From: Streptomyces armeniacus
GTDB lineage: Bacteria > Actinomycetota > Actinomycetes > Streptomycetales > Streptomycetaceae
DNA length: 64,000 nucleotides
Direction of reading: 5' to 3'
Assembly: GCF_003355155.1 (NCBI RefSeq)
Contig: NZ_CP031320.1
Location: 6,446,287 to 6,510,286 of the forward strand
Position numbers and translations under genes: made by a program. Positions 36,017 to 48,748 of the stretch are shown piece by piece. Under the pieces are notes generated by a model that was not told the DNA's origin, ran no database searches, and saw only the letters and a program-made list of their open reading frames with translations. The first letter of the stretch is position 1. Each line of letters begins with the position of its first letter.

Positions 36017-36063
36017 CGGCGGCGGGCCGCGCCCGGCGGACTGCCTGTGCCGGTGCGCGGCCC

Positions 36064-36161
36064 GTGCGTGACGCGCCGTACGTGATGCGCGGTACGTGAC
36101 GCGCCGCAGGTGATGCGCGGTACGTGACGCGCCGCAGGCGATCCGCCGTACGTGATGCTGC
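36064..36161. repeat. 14-bp tandem repeat array, seven units
   Basis: Seven consecutive 14-bp units of pattern GTRCGTGAYGCGCS start at 36064, 36078, 36092, 36106, 36120, 36134 and 36148. A further related unit lies at 36169-36182 and overlaps the 3' end of the small secreted-protein gene. Units alternate between GACGCGCC and GATGCGCG endings, so adjacent units can pair and the array could fold into a run of hairpins between the two convergent genes. Confidence 0.85.
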
Positions 36162-36182
36162 TCGGCTGGTGCGTGATGCCGC

Positions 36183-36693: not shown

Positions 36694-37923
36694 TCAGCTC
36701 TGGGACTCGCCGGAGCCGCTGGTCAGCGGCGGTTCCGGGGCCGCGGCGTGGAACAGCCACTCGGCCTTCAGCTCGGCGTACCCGGGCTTGATCACTTCAT
36801 TGATCATGGCGAGCCGTTCATCGAAAGGGATGAACGCGGACTTCATCGCGTTGACGGTGAACCACTGCATGTCGTCGAGCGTGTACCGGAACGTCCGCAC
36901 CAGGTGCTCGAACTCGGTGCTCATGCTGGTGCCGCTCATCAGCCGGTTGTCGGTGTTCACCGTCGCCCGGAAGTGCAGCCGCCGCAGCAGCCCGATGGGG
37001 TGCTCGGCGTACGACGAGGCCGCGCCCGTCTGCAGGTTCGACGTCGGGCACAGCTCGAGCGGCACACGCTTGTCCCGTACGTACGAGGCGAGGCGCCCGA
37101 GCTTCACCTCCCCCGACCTGGCGGCGGAGACGCCGGACGGGCCGCCCTCGTCGCCCTCACCGGAGTGGGCGCCGTCCGGGACGTGGATGTCGTCGATGAT
37201 GCGCACGCCGTGCCCCAGCCGGTCGGCGCCGCACCACTGCAGCGCCTGCCAGATGGACGGCAGCCCGAACGCCTCGCCCGCGTGGATCGTGAAGTGGTTG
37301 TTCTCGCGCTTGAGGTACTCGAACGCGTCCAGGTGCCGGGTGGGCGGGTAGCCCGCCTCGGCGCCCGCGATGTCGAAGCCGACGACGCCCAGGTCGCGGT
37401 AGCGGTTGGCGAGTTCGGCGATCTCCAGGGCACGGGCCGCGTGCCGCATCGCGGTGAGCAGGGCGCCCACGCGGATACGGTTCCCGGCGGCGCGGGCCCG
37501 CCGCTCGCCCTCGCGGAAGCCCTCGTTCACGGCCTCGACCACCTGCTCCAGGGTGAGCCCCTTCTCCAGGTGCTGCTCCGGCGCGTACCGGACCTCGGCG
37601 TACACCACACCGTCCGCGGCCAGGTCCTCGGCGCACTCGGCAGCCACCCGGGCCAGCGCGTCACGGGTCTGCAGCACGGCGCAGGTGTGGGAGAAGGTCT
37701 CCAGATAGCGCTCGAGGGAGCCGGAGTCGGCCGACTCACGGAACCACGTCTCGAGCCGGTCCGCGTCATCGGGCTCCGGAAGGCCCTCGTAACCGGTCTC
37801 GCGCGCGAGCTCGATGATCGTGGCCGGACGGAGACCGCCGTCGAGGTGGTCGTGCAACAGCGCCTTCGGGGCGCGGCGGATCTGCTCCGTGGTGGGGATG
37901 GTGATGGGGGTCTCGCTCGTCAT
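36694..37923 (-). CDS. add: Adenosine deaminase
   Basis: Zinc hydrolase of 409 residues converting (deoxy)adenosine to inosine. The metal site begins with [10 protein letters not shown] (histidines 24 and 26); TIHAGEAFG supplies the next histidine and the catalytic glutamate, [11 protein letters not shown] the catalytic histidine, and NTDNRLMS the aspartate pair. A charged insert ([14 protein letters not shown]) near residues 250-270 is unusual. In S. coelicolor the add gene sits near the nucleoside operon; here that neighbourhood is retained but split by the Tn3-family element inserted 65 bp upstream of the start. Confidence 0.95.
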
Positions 37924-37987
37924 TTCCGTACTGTAGCGCCTACGCGCGTAGATCGGCAGTGCGATATCGGGCCACCGCCGTACGTCC

Positions 37988-37992
37988 GTGTA
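37988..37992. repeat. 5-bp target duplication GTGTA, left copy
   Basis: GTGTA directly abuts the left terminal repeat of the transposon and recurs at 46484-46488 next to the right repeat. Tn3-family insertion creates exactly such 5-bp duplications. Confidence 0.9.
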
Positions 37993-38030
37993 GGCCCTGT
38001 CCTCCCGAAGCTGCCGCGAAGTGACAAGTA
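37993..38030 (+). repeat. Left terminal inverted repeat of the Tn3-family element
   Basis: The 38-bp end, from GGCCCTGTCCTCCCGAAG to GTGACAAGTA. It differs from the right end only at bases 8-9 (TC against CT). The resolvase stop codon lies 3 bp inside it. Confidence 0.95.
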
Positions 38031-38032
38031 AC

Positions 38033-39040
38033 TCAGCGTGTTGTTAGGGCCTTGGCTTCTGTGCGCGGTTGAGGAACCTCGCTGCTGGTGAGGGCGGCGA
38101 AGTCGGCGTGGGCCTGTTCGACGGCTTCGGGGTACGCCTTGCGCTTGGCGTGTTCGGCGAGCGCGCGGTAGATGCTGGCGACGGAGGGGTTCTGCCCCTT
38201 GCGCTTGCCGGTGGGGATGAACAGGTCGGGCTGGATCTGCTCGACGGACTCGCCGAGCGCCCGCCTGCGGAGCACGGTGTGCAGCATGTCGTCGGTGATG
38301 ACGGGTGGTCGGCCGCCATGCTTGCCCTTGCGGGCCGCGGTGTCGAGCCCTTCCAGCGTCGACTCCCGGATGTTCTCCCGCTCGGTCTCCGCCATCGCGG
38401 CGAAGAACGCGAACAGCAGCTTGCCCGGGCCGGTGGGGTCGTAGATGCCGGGCAGTGGTCCGGCGAGCATCTCCAGGATGAGGCCGTGGGCGGTGAGGTG
38501 GTCGGCGAGCGCGGTGAGTTCGGCGGCGTCGCGGCCGAGCCGCTTCATCTCGTACACGGTGAAGATGACCCGGCAGTGCGGGGCGTGCGCCTTGACCTCC
38601 CGCGCGGTCTTCAGCGCCTCCTCGAACTGGGGGCGGACCCGGACGCGGGTGCTGATCTTCTCGCTGAAGATCTTGTCCCTGGGGATGCCGTGCTTGCTGA
38701 GCGCGTCGAGCTGGGAGTCGAGTTCCTGCCCGAGGGTCGAGCAGCGGGCGTATCCGATGCGGATGTCCGCGCTCGGCAGGTCCGGGTCGATGGGCGTCGG
38801 CGGCGGGGTGCCGGGGCGCCACGGCCGGCCCGGACCCCGGTCGGCCGGGGTCGGGATTCGCAGCGCCTTCTTGAGCCGGGGCACCATCGTGAAGCGGCGG
38901 GTGTGGTAGGCGGAGGCGACCGCGCCGCCGCGTGAGCGGCAGGGCGAGCCGGGCTGCGCGTCACACTTCGGACAGGCGTGCTATTCGACGTCGTCGGCGT
39001 CCGACCGGTCGGTTGGGGAAGGCTGCTGAGGGTCCGTCAT
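38033..39040 (-). pseudogene. tnpR: Tn3 serine resolvase TnpR, interrupted by an amber codon near its start
   Basis: The full reading frame begins at ATG 39040 (MTDPQQPSPTDRSDADDVE), hits TAG at codon 20 (38981-38983), then continues in the same frame with a zinc-finger-like CPKCDAQPGSPCRSRGG. Reinitiation is possible at ATG 38887, giving 284 residues. The serine recombinase core is intact: IGYARCSTLGQELDSQLDAL with the nucleophile serine, YEMKRLGRDAAEL and FFAAMAETERENIRE, followed by a C-terminal helix-turn-helix. Catalysis may survive, but the N-terminal cysteine module would be lost unless the codon is read through. One base change (TAC to TAG) would explain it. Confidence 0.75.
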
Positions 39041-39082
39041 GAGCCCGGATTCTCGCACAATGCAAGTCTCAGAAGGGGGTCC

Positions 39083-39117
39083 AACCGTTCTTTGAGTGAG
39101 AACGGGTTCCGAGAACC
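39083..39117. other. Candidate res (resolution) site dyads
   Basis: Two overlapping dyads lie just upstream of the resolvase gene: AACCGTTCT with AGAACGGGTT (39083-39108, one bulge) and GGTTCCGAGAACC (39105-39117). A GGGTCTGGCGACCC-like dyad follows near 39137. Resolvase-binding res sites of Tn3 elements normally occupy this position. Assignment is by position and symmetry only. Confidence 0.4.
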
Positions 39118-39849
39118 GATTCGAGGTTCCCGGGGGTCTGGCGACCCATTATCGATCTTGCTCGGGCAAAGGACCGTTTGTGAGAGTAACCCCGCGTACA
39201 GCTCTGGCCGTTGCTTGCCTTCAGTGAAGATCACCAGCGGTCGGCGGGCACGACCCCGGCCATCCGTTCGAGCTTCGCAAGCAGCAGCTTGCAGTCGGCG
39301 CCGCGTCGTGCGGTCCGCCGAGCGGCTGATTGCGGTACGCGCCGCGCTTGACCGACCACAGCCCGCGCCACACCGCATACGGCACCATCGCGTCCTCCCA
39401 CCGGATGTGGCCGAGCCAAGGCCCAGCCGCCGCAGCGCCGCCGTGGTGGCGGACAGAGGTTCAGAGATGGGTTCTGCGCGTTCACCGTGCTTGTAGCAGG
39501 CCAGAGCGGCGATGGAGAAAGCGGCGCTGGAACGTCCCCGCACCTGGATGACGGGTGTGCGTCCGCGTCGGGCCCAGGTCCGTGCGGTGAGGAGGTGGTC
39601 AGATCGGCGCGAGTGTCTGGGACGTTCCCGCGGAGGATTCACCACCCAGATCCACCTCGTCGCGGACGGACGATGCCGACCCCTCGCCCTCGTCCTGACA
39701 CCCCCTCATCCGCCCCTGCGAACTCACGAGCGACGGCGTAGTGGGCAGGCCGTCGCCCGAGACGAAGCGACGGACTGCCCTCTCACGCCTCTCCGGTGCG
39801 GCAACGTGAGAGGCGGGCGAGTTCGGCACTGTTTCTCGGATCGCGGGCC
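39118..39849. other. Remnant-filled stretch within the transposon
   Basis: No intact gene. On the minus strand about 39480-39610 encodes ARTWARRGRTPVIQVRGRS and AAFSIAALACYKHGERAE, an IS630-type transposase internal fragment. On the plus strand about 39626-39705 encodes GRSRGGFTTQIHLVADGR and CRPLALVLTP, an IS5-type transposase fragment. The rest is unrecognised. The stretch is a small graveyard of insertion sequences between the resolvase and the passenger operon. Confidence 0.6.
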
Positions 39850-41043
39850 TCAGGCGGGAATGAGGCCGTGGGGGTCGATGATGAACTTCTCGGACGCTCC
39901 CGCGTCGAAGGTCGCGTAGGCGTCGGGGGCGTCGTCGAGGCTGATCACCTTCGTGTTGAGCATGGCGCTCAAGTAGGGCATGCGGTCCCACAGGATCGCC
40001 ATCATCAGCTCGCGGTTGTAGTGCATGATCGGTGCCTGCCCGCCGGTGATCCGCGGCGACTTGATCCAGGCCGTGCCGAAGTCGAGCGGGTACGTTCCCT
40101 CTTGCTCGGCCTTCGACTTCGCGAGCGGGTCGGCGCCGTAGACGCCGATGACTCCGGTGGCTCCGCCCGCGCGGGTGGCGTCGATCACCTGGTTGATAGC
40201 GTAGGCCGGGTCCATGTCCTCGGCCTCGCGGCCGATGCCGTGTGCCTCGGTGCCGACGTAGTCGACTGCACAGTCGACCATGGGTTCGCCCAGGATGGCC
40301 TCGATCTGGTCGGTGAGCGCTGCGTCCTGGCTCAGGTCGATCGTCTCGCAGCCGTTCTTCTTCACCAGCTCCAAGCGGTCCTTGTGGTAATCGCCGACGA
40401 TGATGCAGGACGCCCCGAGGAGGCGCGCCGCTGCTGCGCCGCAGCGACCGACCGGGCCGGCGCCGGCGAGGTACACGGTCGAGCCCGGCTTGGCACCGGC
40501 CTCCATGAGACCGTGGAACGCGGTGGGCAGGATGTCCGAGAGCAGCGCCAGGTCACGGATCTTGGCCATGGCCTGGTCCCTGTCCGGGAAGCGCAGGAGC
40601 TGGAAGTCGGCGTACGGGACGAACAGGTACTCGGCCTGGCCGCCGGTCCAGTCGCCCAGGTTGAAGCCGTACGCTCCGCAGGCCACCTTGGGGTTCGTGG
40701 TCTCGCAGACCTCGGTCCGGCGCGCCCTGCAGTTGCGGCATCGGCCGCAGGCGACGTTGAACGGGACGGAGACGAGGTCGCCCTCGCTGAGGAACTCGAC
40801 GTCGGGGCCGACCTCGATGACCTCCCCGGTCATCTCGTGCCCCACCACCATGCCCTGAGGCACAGGGAAGGACCCGCGGTAGATGTGCAGGTCGCTACCG
40901 CAGATGTTGGTGGCGACGATCCGGAGGATGACTCCGTGCGGGGCCTTCTTCCCGTTCGGCATCTGAAGCTTCGGGAAGTCCAGGGACTCGACGCGCATGT
41001 CCTTCGGGTTCTGGAAGGTGACGGCGCGGTTGCTGCTTGCCAT
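39850..41043 (-). CDS. fdhA: Glutathione-independent formaldehyde dehydrogenase (zinc alcohol dehydrogenase family)
   Basis: A 397-residue NAD-dependent enzyme that oxidises formaldehyde, or dismutates aldehydes, without a thiol cofactor. Catalytic zinc ligands are cysteine 48 in NICGSDLH and histidine 69 in VVGHEMTGEV; the structural zinc has cysteines 99, 102, 105 and 113. AGAGPVGRCGAAAA binds NAD, and the long insertion typical of the FDH subgroup (GIGREAEDMDPAYAINQVID) is present, as is the C-terminal FDAGASEKFIIDPHG. The ATG at 41043 has GAGGAGATCG upstream. It is the last gene of the passenger operon. Actinomycetes normally use a mycothiol-dependent route, so this is an acquired alternative. 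Confidence 0.93.
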   Translation of the reverse strand: MASSNRAVTFQNPKDMRVESLDFPKLQMPNGKKAPHGVILRIVATNICGSDLHIYRGSFPVPQGMVVGHEMTGEVIEVGPDVEFLSEGDLVSVPFNVACGRCRNCRARRTEVCETTNPKVACGAYGFNLGDWTGGQAEYLFVPYADFQLLRFPDRDQAMAKIRDLALLSDILPTAFHGLMEAGAKPGSTVYLAGAGPVGRCGAAAARLLGASCIIVGDYHKDRLELVKKNGCETIDLSQDAALTDQIEAILGEPMVDCAVDYVGTEAHGIGREAEDMDPAYAINQVIDATRAGGATGVIGVYGADPLAKSKAEQEGTYPLDFGTAWIKSPRITGGQAPIMHYNRELMMAILWDRMPYLSAMLNTKVISLDDAPDAYATFDAGASEKFIIDPHGLIPA

Positions 41044-41122
41044 GACGATCTCCTCTGCTGATCCACGGGGACTCGGCCGTGGGAATGCCGGATGTCATTC
41101 GGTGGCTTGCGACTTCACTCGA

Positions 41123-41680
41123 TCAGGCAGGTTGCAGTGCAGCGGCGAAGCGTTCGATGATCGCCTTGCAGAAGGCGGGGAGGTCCTGCGGGCCGCGGCT
41201 GGAGATCAGCTGGCCGTCGATCACGACCTCCTCGTCGACCACCTCGGCGCCGGCGTTGCGCAGGTCAGTACGAATGCTGGGCCAGGAGGTGAGGCGGCGA
41301 CCGCGCAGCACGCCAGCCTCCGCCAGTATCCAAGGTCCGTGGCAGATGGTGGCAACGGGTTTCCCGGTCTCCACGAACTCCCTCACGAAGGCGACGGCGT
41401 CGGGATCGGTGCGCAGCTGGTCGGGGTTCATGGTGCCGCCGGGCAGCAGGAGCGCATCGTAGTCACCCACACGGGCGTCAGCGACCTTCTTGTCCACGGT
41501 AAAGGTTCCGGCCGGGTCGATGTCCATCTGGCGCGCGTTGATCTCGCCGGTGTGGAGGGAGAGGAGTTCGGCCTGCGCTCCAGCGCCCAGCAGTGCGCCG
41601 AGAGGCTGTTCGAGCTCGACGCGCTCAACGCCGTCCGTGGCCAGGATTGCGACCTTCCTGCCGTGCAGTTCGTTGGTCAT
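41123..41680 (-). CDS. DJ-1/PfpI family protein (class I amidotransferase-like)
   Basis: A 185-residue DJ-1/PfpI-fold protein. The nucleophilic elbow ATICHGPWILAEAGV holds cysteine 113 followed by histidine, and glutamate lies in the N-terminal VERVELEQP. Relatives act as glyoxalase III or protein deglycases against methylglyoxal, as chaperones, or as general-stress proteins (YfkM/YhbO type); this sequence fits the latter group (GEINARQMDIDPAGTF, RRLTSWPSIRTDLRNAG). Lying 79 bp before the formaldehyde dehydrogenase in the same direction, it suggests handling of reactive carbonyls. GGAAGGAA precedes the ATG at 41680. Confidence 0.92.
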   Translation of the reverse strand: MTNELHGRKVAILATDGVERVELEQPLGALLGAGAQAELLSLHTGEINARQMDIDPAGTFTVDKKVADARVGDYDALLLPGGTMNPDQLRTDPDAVAFVREFVETGKPVATICHGPWILAEAGVLRGRRLTSWPSIRTDLRNAGAEVVDEEVVIDGQLISSRGPQDLPAFCKAIIERFAAALQPA

Positions 41681-41755
41681 GGTGCGTGGTTCCTTCCGGG
41701 GGAAGCTCCTATAGACCGTCAGCGGGGGACCGGTTCGGGCCCGTGCTGCCGCCGC

Positions 41756-41960
41756 TCAGCTGCCGTCGAGTTGGAGGAGGACCTTGGTCCAACCGTCCTC
41801 GCGGTGGCCGAAGTGCTGGTCGGCCTGCGGCGCCTGGTCCAGCGACAGCTCCTGGAAGACGATCCAGGACGGCTTGGACTTGCCCTGCTCGATCAACCCG
41901 CACAGCTGCCGTTTGTACGCCTTGACGTTGACCTGGCCCGTCCCCACGGTCTGGTGGGCA
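41756..41960 (-). pseudogene. Zinc-dependent alcohol/formaldehyde dehydrogenase, C-terminal remnant
   Basis: About 67 codons encode VGTGQVNVKAYKRQL, then LIEQGKSKPSWIVFQEL and FGHREDGWTKVLLQLDG before the stop. This is the C-terminal end of a zinc alcohol dehydrogenase different from the intact one downstream. The catalytic and cofactor domains are gone. It indicates that the passenger operon once had a second dehydrogenase. A 60-codon open frame just upstream (41963-42145) has no recognisable similarity and may be debris. Confidence 0.65.
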
Positions 41961-42196
41961 CATCACCGTGGACGGAGTGCCGCACGGAAAAGCCTCACCA
42001 CTTCCACTGTCTCACCCCCACAAGAGATGTCAAAAAGGGTCGAATCGCCATGCATGGCCGGTGATGTGCCGGTACCCGGCGTCGTGTATGCGGACCTGGT
42101 AATGATCCAGCCCGGTTTGTTCTTGGCGAACTGGAAAGTTTCCAACGAGCGGCCGCGCTGGGGTCTCCGCTGATCACGGCATGGCGGGGCCAGTCG

Positions 42197-42610
42197 TCAG
42201 AAGGCCGTCGCCGCAGCCTCGGCCACGGTCTGGTCCTGCTCACCGCTGCCGCCGCTGACGCCCACGGCGCCGACGATCCGGCCGCCGTGCCGCAGCGGGA
42301 CACCGCCCGCGAAGATCATGACGCGTCCGTTGTTGGATGCGTTGATCCCGAAGAACTGCTCACCGGGACCCGCGTTGGCGGCCAGGTCGGCGGTAGTGAT
42401 GTCGAAGGCCCGGGACGTGAAGGCCTTGTTGATGGAGATGTCGACGCTCCCGATCCAAGCCTCGTCCATCCGGATGTGCGCGACGAGGTTGCCGCCGACG
42501 TCGACGACGGCGATGTTGCTCGGCGGGCCGATCTCGTCGGCCTTGGCCTCCCCCGCAGCGACGACTCGCCGGGCGTCCTCCAGGGACACTGACTCCGTCT
42601 TGATGGTCAT
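42197..42610 (-). CDS. GlcG/HbpS-family haem-binding-like protein, cytoplasmic
   Basis: A 137-residue protein of the GlcG/HbpS (DUF336) fold. Family blocks are AEADEIGPPSNIAVVDVGGN-like (residues 20-40), LVAHIRMDEAWIGSVDIS, NKAFTSRAFDI and the glycine-rich VPLRHGGRIVGAVGVSGG near the C-terminus. HbpS of streptomycetes binds haem and works with a two-component system in oxidative stress, but that protein is exported; this one has no signal peptide, so cofactor binding or a corrinoid-related role is equally possible. AAAGGA precedes the ATG at 42610. Second gene of the passenger operon. Confidence 0.87.
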   Translation of the reverse strand: MTIKTESVSLEDARRVVAAGEAKADEIGPPSNIAVVDVGGNLVAHIRMDEAWIGSVDISINKAFTSRAFDITTADLAANAGPGEQFFGINASNNGRVMIFAGGVPLRHGGRIVGAVGVSGGSGEQDQTVAEAAATAF

Positions 42611-42815
42611 GGCAAGGTCCTTTCTGCTGTGGATACGCGGTTGTCGCTTGGTGTATTCCGACCCCGCGCGCCTCCGCCTACCTGGCCGAACCTCGCGTGC
42701 TCCGACGCGCACGGCAGGCCCACCCCATGACGGCCCAATCGATCGCCGGTGCGGTGATTCGGGCGCCGGCCGGGACCAGTCCGACGCGCCGGGCGTGGAC
42801 AGGGAAGTTTGGTCT

Positions 42816-43121
42816 TCAGGGGAGTTTGTGGGCGAGGACGTCGAGTTGCTCGACGGACGGCGGTTGGGCGAACAGTTCACCGGCTCGTTCCGTCAGGGCG
42901 CTGCCCAGGCGGCCGGCGAGGTGGGCCTGGCGTGCGGCGTCGTGGGGGAAGGCGTCGAAGATGGCGAAGGTGGACGGGCCCAGGCGCACGGCGAACCAGG
43001 CGACGGTGTCGGGCTCCTCCTGCACGATGGCAAGGCCGTCGCGGAGAAAGGCGGCGACCTCTTCCTCTTTGCCGGGCTGGGCCTCGACCTGTACGTGCAG
43101 CGCGACGTTGATGTTGGCCAT
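42816..43121 (-). CDS. Antibiotic biosynthesis monooxygenase (ABM) domain protein
   Basis: A 101-residue dimeric ferredoxin-like ABM protein, YgiN/quinol-monooxygenase type. Typical segments are NINVALHVQVEAQPGKEEEV, GLAIVQEEPDTVAWFAVRLG, and FAIFDAFPHDAARQAHLAG; these enzymes oxidise quinols or other activated aromatics with O2 and no cofactor, or sense them. AAGGAG lies 8 nt before the ATG at 43121. It is the first gene of the passenger operon, below a candidate promoter with direct repeats. The substrate is unknown. Confidence 0.88.
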   Translation of the reverse strand: MANINVALHVQVEAQPGKEEEVAAFLRDGLAIVQEEPDTVAWFAVRLGPSTFAIFDAFPHDAARQAHLAGRLGSALTERAGELFAQPPSVEQLDVLAHKLP

Positions 43122-43219
43122 GCGGGGACTCCTTTCAGGTGCTCGCTCGCCCGGGAGCGGCCGGGCACTGCCGTGACCGGTTGGCGTCGAACGGGTCTCC
43201 TGTACGGCCGCGCCGATGC

Positions 43220-43260
43220 CTCATTTCACCTATTTTGTCACCTTTTGCGATTTTTTTGAT
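43220..43260 (-). promoter_or_regulatory. A/T-rich promoter region of the passenger operon with AGGTGA direct repeat
   Basis: On the minus strand AGGTGACAAAATAGGTGAAAT contains two AGGTGA copies at 12-bp spacing (43229-43246), next to an A-tract (43253-43259). This is the only strongly A/T-rich patch in the transposon and lies about 110 nt upstream of the first passenger gene. A regulator-binding site is inferred. Confidence 0.4.
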
Positions 43261-43294
43261 CCAGCCGCCGGGGAGCGACGCCGGGCCCAGGTCT

Positions 43295-46200
43295 TCAGGA
43301 TGCCGACCCAGCCGCACCGTCCGTCGCCGATCGGGCGGTTTCCGCCTCGGGCGCGGTCCGGGGGCCGGGCACCGTGGCGGCAAGGGCGAGGTCGAGGTGG
43401 GAGTTCATGTCCAGCTCGAACCGGCCGTAGGGGTTCACGTGCGTCCAGAACAGCGGGGACAGGGCCCGCCGGTCGGCGTCGGTGAGCCTCTTCTGCCACT
43501 TCTCCTCGCTCAGGATGTCCTGGAGCAGCAGGGTGTTGACGTGTACCAGCGCGGACTGGAGCAGGTGCAGGGCGAGCATGGATACCTCCTGGGACTCCTT
43601 GTCGGAGCCGGTCAGGTCGCCGTCCTTGCCGTAGAACAGATCGTGGTTGGCGCTGTTCCAGTTCTCCACGACCTGGAGGCCGTCGTTGATCTCGCGGCGC
43701 AGGTCGGCGTCGGCGAGGTAGTCGCAGATGAACGCCGTACGTACCGCCCGGCCCAGCTCCTCGATCGCCCGGTACGTCGGGTGCTTGGGCCCGCCGCGGG
43801 TGAAGCGCCGCAGGACCTGCTCGGCCTCGGCGGTGCCCAGGCGCAGGGCGGTGGTGTACTTCACGATCTGGTCGTACTGCTGGGCGATCAGGTCCCAGTC
43901 GATCGTCTTGGTCGACAGCACCGGCGCCAGATGCGGCCAGGTCTCGTCCTCACCGGCCGCCGGCCGGTACAGCCGCGCTGAGCCGACGTTCTTCAGTCTC
44001 GGCAGCAGGTTGAAGCCGAGCATGTGCGCGAAGGCGAACCCGACGATGGAAGCGCCGTGGGTGTCGGTGTACTGGCGGTCGATCTCTACGTCCGTGCAGT
44101 GCCGCAGGACGCCCTCGATCATGGCCGCGACCTCGGAGGCGGAGCAGGACTTGAGCTGGGAGTAGACGCACAGCGATTTCTTCTCGACGTGCCAGTAGAT
44201 CATCACGCCGGGGCCGCGGTAGCGCTGGTGCCACTCGGTCATGAAGTTGCTGGACCAGGACCCGAACTTCTTCGAGTCCGACGCGCAGGCGGTGCCCTCG
44301 CCCCACCACGCCTGATCGCGGGCGGCGAAGGTGGCGTTGACCAGCCGGACCAGGGCGGCGCGCAGGTTGGTGCGGTTGACGAACAGGTGCCGCACGCGGC
44401 GCAGGACGGCCTCGCTCTCGCCGTGCTTGCCGGTGACCGCGACCCGCTTGATGCCCATGTTCGTGCCCAGCGCGAACAGCACCAGCAGCAGCCGGCGCCG
44501 CAGCACCGCCTTCGGGACCGCCTCCCTGGTGGCGACCGAGGCGAACTCGGACGTGAACCCGGTGGCGAACTCGGCCTCCTTCAGGATGTCGATCAGGTCG
44601 ATGGTGCCCCACCGCCGCTCGATCTCCGCCTTCAGCGCCACCAGGTTCTCCGGCTCCACCTGCTTGCCCAGCGGCGAGACCTTGATCCACGGCTCGCCGT
44701 GCTTGCGGACGATGTCCACCCCGCCCGTCGTGCCCAGCTCCAGCGCGGTGTCGAAGCGGGTCAGGGACTCCCGCAGCCGCTTCTTCAGCGCGTCGATGAA
44801 GGCGTGGGGGTCCTGGGGCTGGCGGATCGCGTCGTAGTGCACGTCGCGGTTGTCCTCGAAGTCCGGCGGCAGGTCGTCCTCCGGGTTCTGCCACCGGCCC
44901 GCGCCCGGCACCCAGATCTCCCGGCGCCGCAGCGCGTCCCGCAGCGACACCAGCACGCACAGCTCGTACGGGATGCGCTCGACCCGGCCGCGTTCGTCCA
45001 CGACCGCCTTGCGCCACTCCTCGCGTACCACCCCGGCCAGCGGGATCTTCTCCGACTCGTCGAAGAACGCGCCCTCCTTGGCGATGGGCTGGTCCAGGTA
45101 CCGCTTCAGCAGGTCAATGGCGTCCATCACCGGCCGGTAGGCGGTGTTGTTGCACTTCAGCTCCAGCGCCCCGAGCAGCGGGGACAGCATCCGCCGCCAG
45201 TGCCCCGAGTACGACGACCGCAGCACCGTACGCACCCGCGCCCGGTAGCGGGCCTCGTTCGCCGCCGCCTCCGCAGCCAGCGCCTTGAGCGTGGACTCCC
45301 CGGCCACCGGGAAGATCACCCGGCGGACCGTGCCACCCGGCTCCGCGACCGCCGCCTCCGCCAGCCGCAGCAGGATGCCCTCCTTGCCGCGCACCCGCTT
45401 GAGGTCCTTGGTGAACTCGCCCTCGACCTTCTTCTCCGCCCGCGTGTTGATCCGCTGCACCAGCTGGATGAACAGCTCCACCAGCGAGTCGGTGATCTCT
45501 GTCTGCCGCACGTGGCACAGCGCGGCCAGCAGCGTGTACCGCACCGGTCCGGCTGCCGCCCGCAGGTCCGAGGGGTACTCCTTCGACGCCCGCCCCCGCC
45601 AGGCGGCCACCAGCTTCTCCGATACGTCCCCGAACAGCTCCGGCGCCAGCTCCAGCGCGCGCACCCGCTGGAGCTTGTTCACCTCCGCTAGGAGACTGTC
45701 CAGGCCCAGCGCACCGGGGTCCGCCTTCAGCTCGGAGAAGAACGACACGCCGCCGCCCGCAGACTCCTCGCCGCCGGCGTCCTCGGCGACCAGGTCGTCC
45801 AGCCGGGACCGGGTCGCCGCCGACAGCCGGCCCACCGTGGCCGCGCAGAACCGTTCCTCGAAGGTGCTGACCGCCGACCCCACCAGGCGGGCGATACGCC
45901 CCGGCGTCGGCGGCTCCAGCCGGTCCTTGCGGCAGCGGGCCACCACCGCCTCCGCCAGCCGGTCCCTCGACAGCTCCACCCCGCACAGCTCCACCGCCAG
46001 CCACTCGGCGAGCTGGGCCTGGTCCTCCGCGGTGCACTCCCGGAACCCGAACGCGCCCCGGATCTCAACCCGGTGCCGCTTGATCGCCCGCCCCGCCCAG
46101 TCGTACGCCGCCAACTCCCCGGCCAGCACCTTCACCTGCTGGGCCACGTACGCCACCGCCGGCGCCGGGATCTCCTCGGCGTTCTCCGGGAACCGTGCCT

Positions 46201-46333
46201 CCACCTCGAAGAACTTCAGCAACAACGCGAACCCCAGCCGGTTCGCCCCCGACTTGTTCCGCAACCGCTCCTGGTCCTCCTCCAGCAGCGTCCAGACCTC
46301 GATCAGGTCCTCCGGCTCCCACTCCTGCCGCAC
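43295..46333 (-). CDS. tnpA: Tn3 family transposase TnpA
   Basis: A 1012-residue DDE transposase, full length for the family. The N-terminal DUF4158-type DNA-binding region ([20 protein letters not shown] onward) is followed by the DDE domain: aspartates in [14 protein letters not shown] and [16 protein letters not shown], and the glutamate in [16 protein letters not shown]. It mediates replicative transposition to a cointegrate, resolved by TnpR at res. No frameshift or internal stop is present, so the element could still move. The start lies 113 bp inside the right inverted repeat. Confidence 0.97.
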
Positions 46334-46445
46334 CCCGCGCTCCCTCCGGTCGTCATGACCGGACCAAGGTCGCCGAGCACGGCCCCCGATGAACCCAGAA
46401 GATCGAAAACGCTGACAAGCGCACCCCAGATCCGCTACAGAGAGC

Positions 46446-46483
46446 TACTTGTCACTTCGCGGCAGCTTCGGGAGAGCAGGGCC
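46446..46483 (-). repeat. Right terminal inverted repeat of the Tn3-family element
   Basis: The 38-bp mirror of the left end, from TACTTGTCACTTCGC to GGGCC. Followed immediately by the second GTGTA copy. Confidence 0.95.
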
Positions 46484-46488
46484 GTGTA
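46484..46488. repeat. 5-bp target duplication GTGTA, right copy
   Basis: Second copy of the target sequence, matching 37988-37992 exactly. Beyond it, 46489-46713 is G/C-rich chromosomal DNA with no gene recognised. Confidence 0.9.
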
Positions 46489-46713
46489 CGGCGGGTGACG
46501 GGTGCCGTACGGCGCCGGTACGTCCGCGGTACGGCGCGGCACGGGCGCCGCACGGGCCGGTTCGGGACGCGCGGGGGTGCGCGGGGGTGCGCGGGGACTC
46601 GTACGGACGTCCCTCGGGCGCCTTCCGTCACACGCTGCCGCCGGACGCTTTTGATACGTAATGGTGATCCCCGGGCACGGCCCGTACACCTCACCTTCTG
46701 TCATCGTTCTGGC

Positions 46714-47490
46714 ATGGCTCAGCAAGCGACGCCGGACCGAGTGCCGGACCGGGAAGCCAAGTTGGGGCGACCGATGGGTGAACGCCAGTCGGTCCACGGG
46801 GTCGTACTGCTGCTGCCCGGCGGCGAAGCGCGGAGCGTACGCCGCCGGTCCGCGAGGTCCGTCGCGGCGGCCCTGCCGCTGGCCCGAAGACTGGCGCGCG
46901 CCGGTCAGGACGAGTCACTCGTGACACACCTCCTCCACTACCGCTACCGCGGCTGGAACGGCACCGCCGCGCACCCGGTCACGGACACCGAATGGGCCCT
47001 GGAGGAGGTCGTACGGCGCTACGGCGACGTGTCCGTCTGCCTCATAGGCACAGACGTCGGCGCCCGCGCCGCCCTGCGCGCCGGCGGACACCCCGCCGTC
47101 AACTCGGTGCTCGCCATCGCACCCTGGCTGCCCGACCCCGCCGACGAGCCGCGCGCGATCGAGGACGAACCCGTGGCCCAACTGGCGGGCCGCCGGGTGC
47201 TGCTGGTCCACGGCACGAACGACGGACGCAGCGACCCGGAGCTCTCGTACCGGCTGGCGGAGCGCGCCAAGAAGATCAACGCGGACGTCTGCCGCTTCGA
47301 GGTGCACTCCGACGGGCACGGCCTGCACCAGCACCGCGCGGAAGTCGCGGCCCTCGCCGAGGATTTCGTCCTCGGCACGCTGTGCGGCCGCGACTTCGCC
47401 CGCCCCCTGGCGGACGCGCTGGCGGCACCGCCGCCGCTGGGTCTGCGCATGCCGTTGGCGGCGGGCTTCGGCCGCACGCTGCCCCGCTGA
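46714..47490 (+). CDS. Alpha/beta hydrolase
   Basis: A 258-residue alpha/beta-fold hydrolase. VVLLLPGGEARS gives the oxyanion-loop region, CLIGTDVGARAALRAG stands at the nucleophile elbow (the G-x-D-x-G form has aspartate where many have serine), and VLLVHGTNDGRSDPE plus SDGHGLHQH supply the acid and histidine positions. The substrate is unknown. The unusual elbow could mean dienelactone-hydrolase-like chemistry or loss of catalysis. ATG at 46714. A strong terminator overlaps the stop codon. Confidence 0.8.
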   Translation: MAQQATPDRVPDREAKLGRPMGERQSVHGVVLLLPGGEARSVRRRSARSVAAALPLARRLARAGQDESLVTHLLHYRYRGWNGTAAHPVTDTEWALEEVVRRYGDVSVCLIGTDVGARAALRAGGHPAVNSVLAIAPWLPDPADEPRAIEDEPVAQLAGRRVLLVHGTNDGRSDPELSYRLAERAKKINADVCRFEVHSDGHGLHQHRAEVAALAEDFVLGTLCGRDFARPLADALAAPPPLGLRMPLAAGFGRTLPR

Positions 47491-47516
47491 TGGGGGGGCG
47501 CGCGGCGCCCCCCATC
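47489..47516 (+). terminator. Terminator of the hydrolase gene
   Basis: GATGGGGGG (47489-47497) pairs perfectly with CCCCCCATC (47508-47516), including the stop codon bases in the stem. Another G/C hairpin, GCGCGCTGCGCGCGC, follows at once. Confidence 0.75.
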
Positions 47517-47538
47517 GCCCGCGCGCTGCGCGCGCAAC

Positions 47539-47706
47539 CAGCCCGTCCGGCACTCAGGCACGTACCCGCACAATCAAGCCCGTCCGGCGGTTGAGGACGG
47601 ACCCCGGCCCGCCCCGGACCGCACCCGCGTACGACACCGTGAACGCCCACCAGCGACCACCGCACCGCCTGGGCCGAGGGCCGTCCTCAAACACCGGACG
47701 GGCTGG
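47539..47706. repeat. Extragenic palindromic repeat, copies A to C
   Basis: Copies of a 25-29 bp unit centred on CCGTCC..GGACGG occur at 47539-47560 (partial), 47574-47600 and, inverted, 47681-47706. Related copies are at 50201-50224, 50297-50325 and 50339-50367. The unit reads GTCCTCAAACACCGGACGGG in copy C. Apart from these repeats, 47517-47836 holds no gene. Confidence 0.8.
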
Positions 47707-47836
47707 GTACGTGGCACACACAGACCGTCCCCAACCGCCCGGCGGGACAGGGATGGTGGGCCTGGAGGACCGCCCCAAGGGCCCGGCGGGGCTGCGCACA
47801 GGGGCCCGGCTCGGGTGGGTGGCGGGTGGGGCGCGG

Positions 47837-48748
47837 TTACTTCAGAAGGTGGCCCCGGCGGCCCAGCACGAAGCGTTTGAAGGACGCCACCGGCGCCGTG
47901 TCCGGATGCCCCCGCGCCCACGCGAGGCCGATCTCGCGAACGGCACGCGGCGCCGTGACCGTCAGTTCACGGACGCCCGGCCGCGGCATTGCCGGCGGCG
48001 GCAGGAGCGCGACGCCGAGGCCCGCCGCGACCAGTCCGCGGATCGTCTCCGCCTCCTCCCCCTCGAACGCGATACGCGGCCGGAACCCGGCCTCCGCGCA
48101 CATGGATTCGAGGATGCGCCGCATGCCGTAGCCCCGTTCCAGGCTGACGAAGGGCTCGTCGGCGGCCTCCGCGAGGCGGATGCGTTTGCGGGCGGCCAGC
48201 GGGTGGTCGTCCGGTACGACCAGGCTCAGCCGTTGTTCGTCCAGGCGGCGGGCGACCAGGTCCGGGTCGTCGGGGTCCGGTACGGGCGAGGTGAGGCAGA
48301 GGTCGAGTTCGCCGGTACGCAGGCGTTCGAGCATCGCGTCGCCATACGTCTGCACCAACGCGAAGCGGACGCGCGGGTGTTCGGCGCGGAAGGCCCGGAT
48401 GAGGCCGGGCACGGTCTCCCAGCCGAGGGTGTGCAGGAAGCCGAAGGCGACCTTGCCCGTGGCGGGGTCGGCGTCGGCGCGTACGGACTCGGCGGCCTGT
48501 TCGACGGCCGCGAGCGCGCGTTCCGCGGAGGCGAGGAACGTACGGCCGGCCGGGGTGAGGGAGACCGTACGGCCGCGGCGCGCGAAGAGGGCGACGCCGA
48601 GGTCGTCCTCGAGTCGGGTCACGGCGCGGCTCAGGGTGGACTGCGGCACGCCGAGTTCGTGCGCGGCACGCGTGACGTGCTCGTGCCGGGCGACGGCCAC
48701 GAAGTGGGCGAGGCGCGGGGTGAGGGCGGTGCCCCAGTCGGATGTCAC
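47837..48748 (-). CDS. LysR family transcriptional regulator
   Basis: A 303-residue LysR-type regulator. The N-terminal winged helix (residues 8-65) has LAHFVAVARHEHVTRAAHEL and QSTLSRAVTRLEDDLGVALF; the effector domain includes GFLHTLGWETVPGLIRAF, LDLCLTSPVPDP and EAETIRGLVAAGLGVALLP. It is divergent from an MFS exporter 126 bp away, the standard arrangement in which the regulator controls the neighbour in response to a transported ligand. GTG start at 48748. CTGTCA and TGACAG (48753-48758 and 48776-48781) form a possible operator dyad. Confidence 0.92.
   Translation of the reverse strand: MTSDWGTALTPRLAHFVAVARHEHVTRAAHELGVPQSTLSRAVTRLEDDLGVALFARRGRTVSLTPAGRTFLASAERALAAVEQAAESVRADADPATGKVAFGFLHTLGWETVPGLIRAFRAEHPRVRFALVQTYGDAMLERLRTGELDLCLTSPVPDPDDPDLVARRLDEQRLSLVVPDDHPLAARKRIRLAEAADEPFVSLERGYGMRRILESMCAEAGFRPRIAFEGEEAETIRGLVAAGLGVALLPPPAMPRPGVRELTVTAPRAVREIGLAWARGHPDTAPVASFKRFVLGRRGHLLK

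Follow-up and report, generated by a model that had tools for sequence, protein, structure and literature searches.

A mobile Tn3-family transposon in Streptomyces and its probable formaldehyde-defence cargo

Do the aldehyde-related genes between the ends of a transposon in Streptomyces armeniacus travel as a module, and what would they do for their host? The element in question is an 8,491-bp Tn3-family transposon at positions 37993-46483 of a 64,000-nt stretch (hereafter the window) of the S. armeniacus chromosome, an 8.08-Mb single-contig genome. The original prediction, made from the sequence, held that this transposon mobilises a self-contained carbonyl-detoxification module. We find a complete element that has moved between species, and we consider it probable that its passenger genes form a formaldehyde-defence module that is also carried by a second Tn3-family vehicle and by plasmids.

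A transposon at two unrelated sites

The 38-bp terminal inverted repeats agree at 36 of 38 positions, with the length of about 38 bp typical of Tn3-family ends, and this end pair is also the longest inverted repeat returned by a repeat scan (42 nt, 93%). Directly outside them, GTGTA at 37988-37992 and 46484-46488 forms a perfect 5-bp target duplication, as is characteristic of the family. Between the ends lie tnpR, the cargo and tnpA, all on the − strand. The adenosine deaminase gene next to the element (Pfam 344 bits) has its start codon at 37923, with the transposon 65 bp upstream of it. The tnpA product scores 423 bits against Pfam DDE_Tnp_Tn3 and is the sole match in the host genome at E 0.001. 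TnpA would act on the 38-bp ends to copy the element and TnpR would resolve the resulting joint molecule, the established mechanism of the Tn3 family. The features are as follows.

37988..37992, no strand: target-site duplication, left copy GTGTA, read directly and equal to the right copy
37993..38030, + strand: 38-bp terminal inverted repeat, tnpR side, identical in the S. montanisoli (L035) and S. sedi (L048) loci
38033..38887, − strand: tnpR, serine resolvase, 284 aa (Pfam Resolvase 93 bits)
38888..39376, − strand: backbone DNA upstream of tnpR with a putative res site (similarity to S. oceani locus L078 over 38091-39376, 90.7%)
39377..39705, no strand: stretch between backbone and cargo, in part insertion-sequence debris (DNA matches)
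39850..41043, − strand: zinc dehydrogenase/dismutase of the FdhA-Fdm superfamily, 397 aa (PDB and NCBIfam matches)
41123..41680, − strand: DJ-1/PfpI family protein, 185 aa (Pfam DJ-1_PfpI 173 bits)
41756..41941, − strand: remnant, the C-terminal 61 aa of a second, FdhA2-type dehydrogenase (DNA and protein matches)
42197..42610, − strand: GlcG/HbpS-like DUF336 protein, 137 aa (Pfam HbpS-like 136 bits)
42816..43121, − strand: small protein resembling antibiotic biosynthesis monooxygenases (ABM), 101 aa (PDB 2PD1, E 3.5e-26)
43122..43257, − strand: conserved 5′ leader of ABM, with the cargo–backbone junction at about 43254-43258 by match limits
43295..46333, − strand: tnpA, Tn3-family transposase, 1012 aa (NCBIfam NF033527 834 bits, cut-off 500)
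46446..46483, − strand: 38-bp terminal inverted repeat, tnpA side, 36/38 to the tnpR-side end
46484..46488, no strand: target-site duplication, right copy GTGTA, equal to the left copy

The same element is present end to end on S. montanisoli contig NZ_JAGIQL010000090.1 (L035) at 99.69% identity, with 26 alignment differences and a length of 8,493 rather than 8,491 bp. Its flanks have no match to the window and it carries its own perfect 5-bp duplication, TCGTC. With a second copy at an unrelated site, bearing its own duplication, in S. montanisoli, the element has therefore moved between species; the ends, the target duplications and the second site in another species show a Tn3-family unit transposon that was recently active. 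The predicted completeness of the element, which rested on its ends, its duplication and an intact transposase, is thereby confirmed by a second whole copy. S. sedi (L048) holds a partial relative with one end identical to that of the window and a cargo 96-98% alike, on a contig that stops inside the tnpA region. In a search of 60 relatives for joined flanks, both flanks are found on one contig, at most a few hundred bases apart, in 15 (G007, G008, G009, G011, G014, G016, G017, G020, G021, G022, G026, G027, G031, G033 and G036) and about 1.4 kb apart in G002, the join being too diverged to give the exact uninserted base pairs.

Within the backbone, the open reading frame (ORF) of the window resolvase is shorter than its annotated counterparts in three relatives (1008-1011 nt). 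The cause is an in-frame stop within 38888-39040, which breaks an N-terminal extension present in related resolvases; the catalytic part remains open, and the match to the catalytic domain covers its whole length. The res site is presumed to lie within 38888..39376. Beyond it, 39589-39703 matches Streptomyces plasmids (63 records), and one of the eight records listed has an IS5 family transposase annotated there. Two repeats lie outside the element: a GTACGTGACGCGCC-like unit recurs at 14-bp spacing at 36050-36173, downstream of the adenosine deaminase gene, and 47577-47704 holds an inverted repeat of 34 nt (88% complementary, 60 nt between the arms).

Backbone and cargo, judged by where their matches end, have separate histories. 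A query of 601 bases across the tnpA–cargo join gave some match in 253 of 392 Streptomyces genomes, with two candidates scored per genome, and a full match only in the window's own genome. One further genome, S. sedi G156, crosses the junction (query 171-601, 87%); others match the tnpA side only, several ending at 43258, or the cargo side only, starting at 43254-43193 inward. Cargo without this backbone is found on an S. longhuiensis plasmid at 94.8% DNA identity. The original prediction had staked its claim against finding the same gene order without transposon ends. That order, ABM–HbpS–DJ-1–dehydrogenase, does occur in L041, L044, L047 and L115, with no match to the window transposase, resolvase or end in the flanks examined; L115 is a plasmid with other flanking inverted repeats. 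The module also exists outside the element, which does not undo the mobility of the element itself.

A second vehicle carries a related set. In S. oceani (L078:1566-12031), a different transposon of 10,466 bp holds an enzyme 97% identical to that of the window between 47-bp perfect ends, each bordered by a perfect copy of the 6-bp repeat CTTCAG; a 5-bp duplication would be usual for Tn3-family elements, and here the perfect end match extends 2 bp further out, so that the exact edge is ambiguous. Its Tn3 DDE transposase (451 bits) is 27% identical to the window TnpA over 627 residues, and its TnpR is 93% identical. DJ-1 (82%), DUF336 (71%) and the FdhA2 remnant (72%) recur in the cargo, together with an inverted ABM whose sequence falls into two frames, another ABM at 53% and part of a DUF336 gene at 46%. 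Because the gene order differs and the sequences have diverged, this comparison suggests that the two cargoes were assembled separately. Repeats bracketing the enzyme were found by a flanking-repeat scan in 5 of the 57 most closely related loci, 1 of 19 and 0 of 12 more distant ones and 0 of 40 controls (the sets are defined below). L052, L061, L115 and L121 are among the loci with such repeats; only L035 and L078 are shown to be Tn3 elements.

Separately, Nostoc sp. MG11 (L100, 1848-10793) has a Tn3 DDE transposase (477 bits) about 3.6 kb from a cluster of FdhA, DJ-1 and aldo-keto reductase genes, with two more FdhA-like stretches in between. Two inverted repeats were found in the DNA examined at this locus, neither of which brackets both the transposase and the FdhA cluster.

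Could the cargo be a passive hitch-hiker, captured by chance and of no benefit? The insertion-sequence debris and gene remnant inside the element fit such an origin, as does a tnpA–cargo junction confined to two of the 392 Streptomyces genomes scored as above, the window's own and G156. Against it, the ratio of non-synonymous to synonymous substitution (dN/dS) is well below 1 for all four genes. Medians against the window copy are 0.15 for FdhA (55 of 57 comparisons used), 0.17 for DJ-1 (21 of 24), 0.25 for DUF336 (12 of 13) and 0.16 for ABM (7 of 8), pairs with dS outside 0.02-1.5 being dropped; the highest single values are 0.68, 0.24, 0.46 and 0.51, so all used pairs stay below 1. A second Tn3 element, whose transposase is very different, has captured a related set, which also speaks against chance; we regard hitch-hiking as very unlikely.

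The passenger genes and their probable roles

The closest solved structures to the window enzyme are formaldehyde dismutase 2DPH (526 bits, 58.9% identity) and FdhA 1KOL (466 bits, 56.2%), both compared over about 394 residues and both of which we take to come from Pseudomonas putida. The residues aligned with the zinc ligands of 2DPH and 1KOL, presumably the catalytic and structural ones, are kept. In a midpoint-rooted tree of 95 distinct rows (109 before identical ones were removed; the bootstrap had not fully settled), the enzyme falls in an actinobacterial clade of 55 rows with support 100/99. A separate group of 20 rows (100/99) unites 2DPH, 1KOL and 18 chromosomal Streptomyces FdhA proteins; 2DPH is thus placed with the FdhA proteins rather than with the window enzyme (100/99), on a long branch whose placement the program flags as unsure. 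Among 199 Streptomyces genomes, six, including the window's, have the enzyme at 92% identity or more, and 21 have a type 52-54% identical. The enzyme would convert formaldehyde to formate, or to formate and methanol, without mycothiol. Since the host already encodes a mycothiol-dependent formaldehyde dehydrogenase (675 bits on TIGR03451, cut-off 513), the cargo would add a thiol-independent route.

The dehydrogenase remnant of the original prediction is the tail of a further enzyme, of FdhA2 type. Its DNA matches genes annotated as glutathione-independent formaldehyde dehydrogenase, and its protein is 58% identical over 57 aa to a Rhodococcus opacus plasmid gene; a DJ-1–FdhA2–ABM trio is annotated on a plasmid of that species. 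The FdhA2 type scores about 300 bits on the FdhA model TIGR02819, well under the cut-off.

The DJ-1/PfpI protein exceeds the subfamily cut-off of TIGR01382 (161.8 versus 139.05 bits) and falls under that of the deglycase PfpI equivalog NF040823 (126 versus 330); Cys113-His114 is kept in all eight aligned proteins. It would clear or reverse carbonyl adducts. At E 0.001 nothing in Pfam matches the ABM-like protein, whose name rests on homologues annotated as antibiotic biosynthesis monooxygenase and on the match to its nearest solved relative, 2PD1, itself a hypothetical protein.

The DUF336 protein was rightly predicted as GlcG/HbpS-like, a family that also includes EfgA, the formaldehyde sensor of Methylorubrum extorquens, in which K57, S114 and D121 contact formaldehyde (PMC8153426). 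All three residues are kept in the window protein, as in 39 of the 40 rows compared, HbpS 4BMW being the exception; such a pattern does not discriminate, which rules out its use as proof of EfgA function. The protein is about equally close to PDB 2A2L (99 bits) and EfgA 6BWS (96 bits), and its join with EfgA in the tree, on long branches, is not supported (88/5). The DUF336 protein of a related Bosea locus is closer to EfgA (114 versus 90 bits). The available part of the EfgA article reports no conserved gene context for efgA (PMC8153426). The DUF336 and ABM-like proteins would do accessory work, perhaps aldehyde sensing or scavenging.

All cargo genes share the − strand, so the single direction claimed in the original prediction stands; its term operon is loose. 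Gaps of 205 nt (ABM–HbpS), 516 nt (HbpS–DJ-1) and 79 nt (DJ-1–dehydrogenase) separate the genes, and alignments of 10 loci for ABM and 8 for HbpS show a conserved 5′ leader ahead of each gene, 42611-42815 in the case of HbpS, even where the gene order differs; together these rule out one tight operon. A terminator scan found 1 site against 3.0 expected, and Rfam at gathering cut-offs gave 0 matches in 37000-48000. From these resemblances we infer the substrate of the enzyme and the roles of the DJ-1, DUF336 and ABM proteins: the most likely function of the cargo, as far as its sequence tells, would be thiol-independent formaldehyde removal and adduct repair.

Gene neighbourhoods of the enzyme across bacteria

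The neighbourhoods of the enzyme bear on what it does. We compared 88 loci, comprising the best 80 of 406 related places and 8 plasmid regions, 57 of which carry the enzyme at 75% identity or more. Counts cover at most 8 kb of either flank (10-15 kb in the plasmid regions unless the record ends, and less at contig ends). Controls were 20 loci of the chromosomal 53% FdhA of Streptomyces and 20 stretches, chosen by us, of 10 Streptomyces genomes. Near the 57 loci, we observe DJ-1 in 31, ABM in 30, UvrA in 22, DUF336 in 15, aldo-keto reductase in 13, AraC in 11, FAD oxidase and LuxR in 9 each, HPS, PHI and TnpR in 8 each, NhaA in 7, MscR in 3 and TnpA in 2; TnpR above 90% identity is restricted to L035, L048 and L078. 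At 19 loci with 60-75% identity, ABM and DJ-1 appear 9 times each, UvrA 6, old-yellow-enzyme-type reductase 5, DUF336 and aldo-keto reductase 2 each and TnpA once, and the 12 loci below 60% have UvrA in 3 and no other panel family. DJ-1, ABM, UvrA, DUF336, HPS, PHI and MscR are in 0 of 40 controls: the chromosomal FdhA neighbourhoods have aldo-keto reductase in 2 and no other panel family, and the Streptomyces stretches have none. The linkage of the enzyme to this set is a plain observation. The HPS and PHI proteins scanned exceed their curated cut-offs, and the UvrA of L045, the one typed, is closest to UvrA2 (2VF7, 1135 bits, versus 705 for the next, a canonical UvrA). HPS, PHI and MscR act on formaldehyde.

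These counts also bear on two other readings. One is a general electrophile or quinone/methylglyoxal defence, in which the dehydrogenase would act on other aldehydes while DJ-1, ABM and aldo-keto reductases clear carbonyls and quinones. The aldo-keto reductase near 13 of 57 loci is consistent with it, as are the old-yellow-enzyme-type reductase (N-ethylmaleimide reductase model) at 5 of the 19 more distant loci, a gene annotated NADPH:quinone reductase on the same Tn3 backbone elsewhere and the DJ-1/PfpI subfamily match. However, aldo-keto reductase also turns up in 2 of 20 control loci, HPS (8), PHI (8) and MscR (3) accompany the enzyme clade and none of the 40 controls, and the closest solved enzymes are formaldehyde enzymes; we think this reading unlikely. 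The other is catabolism of one-carbon (C1) compounds, with the genes disposing of formaldehyde released from methanol, methoxy-aromatics or methylamines. Such a source is hinted at in 9 of 57 loci by a nearby FAD amine-oxidase-like gene, whose best NCBIfam hits, N-methyltryptophan oxidase and soxA, both stay under cut-off, but this gene was not found in the L035 or S. oceani element, and a general Pfam scan, with no search aimed at such enzymes, recognised no C1-releasing enzyme among the ORFs of the element. C1 catabolism is, in our judgement, improbable.

Several observations weigh against formaldehyde defence itself. The window enzyme scores 539.5 bits on TIGR02819 (FdhA), under the cut-off of 636.95, which the chromosomal Streptomyces enzyme of about 53% identity in L136 passes with 730.9, and it groups with neither solved enzyme, so that its substrate could, on this phylogenetic evidence, differ from formaldehyde. 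Plain FdhA identity is ruled out by that score and the tree placement, so that the predicted FdhA label is not supported in that form. Among the 57 loci, which are not independent because several Streptomyces clusters are near-identical, 27 lack ABM and 26 lack DJ-1 in the DNA examined, and HPS and PHI lie near only 8. Neither HPS/PHI nor UvrA was found in either transposon, the window element or that of S. oceani. Furthermore, the panel proteins were drawn from the same loci, some loci had more flank than the controls, and the controls are Streptomyces only. A promoter scan found no sigma-70-like promoter (0 sites), and Pfam recognised no regulator among the cargo ORFs scanned. Because no regulator was recognised, and because larger sets at other loci also include UvrA, an AraC regulator, HPS/PHI and reductases, the word self-contained in the original prediction is doubtful; what stands is a complete, moved Tn3 element with a probable aldehyde-detoxification module.

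Formaldehyde defence remains the reading we favour. Related sets, some of them larger through UvrA for DNA repair and HPS/PHI for formaldehyde fixation, exist outside the element. No fewer than two Tn3-family vehicles, whose transposases differ greatly, have captured such a set, and plasmids have done so too.

Some of the wider neighbourhoods deserve mention in their own right. Five loci of Brachybacterium and Kocuria (L055, L056, L060, L061 and L063) hold a compact cluster of ABM, DJ-1, UvrA, dehydrogenase, HPS, PHI and a LuxR-type regulator, three of them with NhaA, which makes it a candidate formaldehyde island in Micrococcales. Three Streptomyces loci (L116, L045 and L050) have the dehydrogenase near UvrA, AraC, PHI, HPS and S-(hydroxymethyl)mycothiol dehydrogenase; by sequence, thiol-dependent, thiol-independent and ribulose monophosphate (RuMP)-type routes would lie side by side there. 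Loci L102-L110 and L112-L114 (Sphingomonadaceae, Pseudomonas, Thauera, Dyella and others) have FdhA-type genes 57-58% identical to that of the window, 2 of the 12 being left as distinct rows once identical proteins were removed, and neighbours that, on visual inspection, resemble UvrB and a tyrosine integrase; they are perhaps recently spread islands. In L120, 7201-8976 encodes an NhaA-type antiporter; a thioredoxin-like model matches the C-terminal part of this protein at a score under the cut-off.

Known mobile formaldehyde systems

Three Tn3 elements of Streptomyces plasmids (L176, L177 and L178) share the backbone at 90.6-91.9% DNA identity over 38-51% of the element and, like the window element, carry their cargo between the resolvase and transposase genes. 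Unlike the window's, that cargo is annotated as consisting of alpha/beta hydrolase, PadR and quinone reductase genes; of GDSL esterase, ABM, methyltransferase and MarR genes; or of an MFS transporter gene. Among the literature matches listed, none describes by title or abstract a Tn3 element with this cargo, most subscription journals lying outside the coverage; in the available part of one article, 'Tn3 family' and 'formaldehyde dehydrogenase' co-occur in unrelated places (PMC2680597). According to a review, formaldehyde dismutase is a relatively uncommon enzyme (PMC8879981).

Mobile DNA with formaldehyde genes has been described before. ICEPni1 of Pseudomonas nitroreducens carries FdhA, UvrA and UvrB, to which its authors assign formaldehyde detoxification (PMC7466150). 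It differs from the window element in being a 96-kb integrative and conjugative element of a proteobacterial host and in also carrying FrmA/FrmB, and the available part of its description does not name ABM, DJ-1 or DUF336 (PMC7466150). A conjugative Escherichia coli plasmid is also cited for formaldehyde resistance, in the accessible text on the fungal Starships (PMC11623301). Formaldehyde defence appears to be a mobile trait that bacteria exchange. In soil actinomycetes, a probable defence of this kind spreads on transposons even where the host has a mycothiol route, which raises the question of the selective pressure involved, and its repeated linkage ties the ABM-like, DUF336 and DJ-1/PfpI proteins to formaldehyde-type enzymes, giving each a testable function.

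A parallel lies outside bacteria. As far as the available text of their description goes, the ssf clusters of fungal Starships are formaldehyde-resistance genes common to several unrelated giant transposons, and some hold a uvrA taken from bacteria (PMC11623301). Unlike the window element, Starships are eukaryotic, rely mainly on a glutathione-dependent pathway and have had their effect shown by experiment (PMC11623301). Tentatively, and with rather less confidence than an even bet would need, we propose that a portable module built on a further FdhA/dismutase clade, with DJ-1, an ABM-like protein, a DUF336 protein that is a possible EfgA-like sensor and often UvrA2-type repair, may be exchanged as a unit, across phyla, between unrelated transposons, plasmids and chromosomes, as a bacterial counterpart of the Starship formaldehyde cargo down to the shared uvrA. 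With a uvrA link found here and reported for the Starships, a selective cause shared across kingdoms becomes testable.

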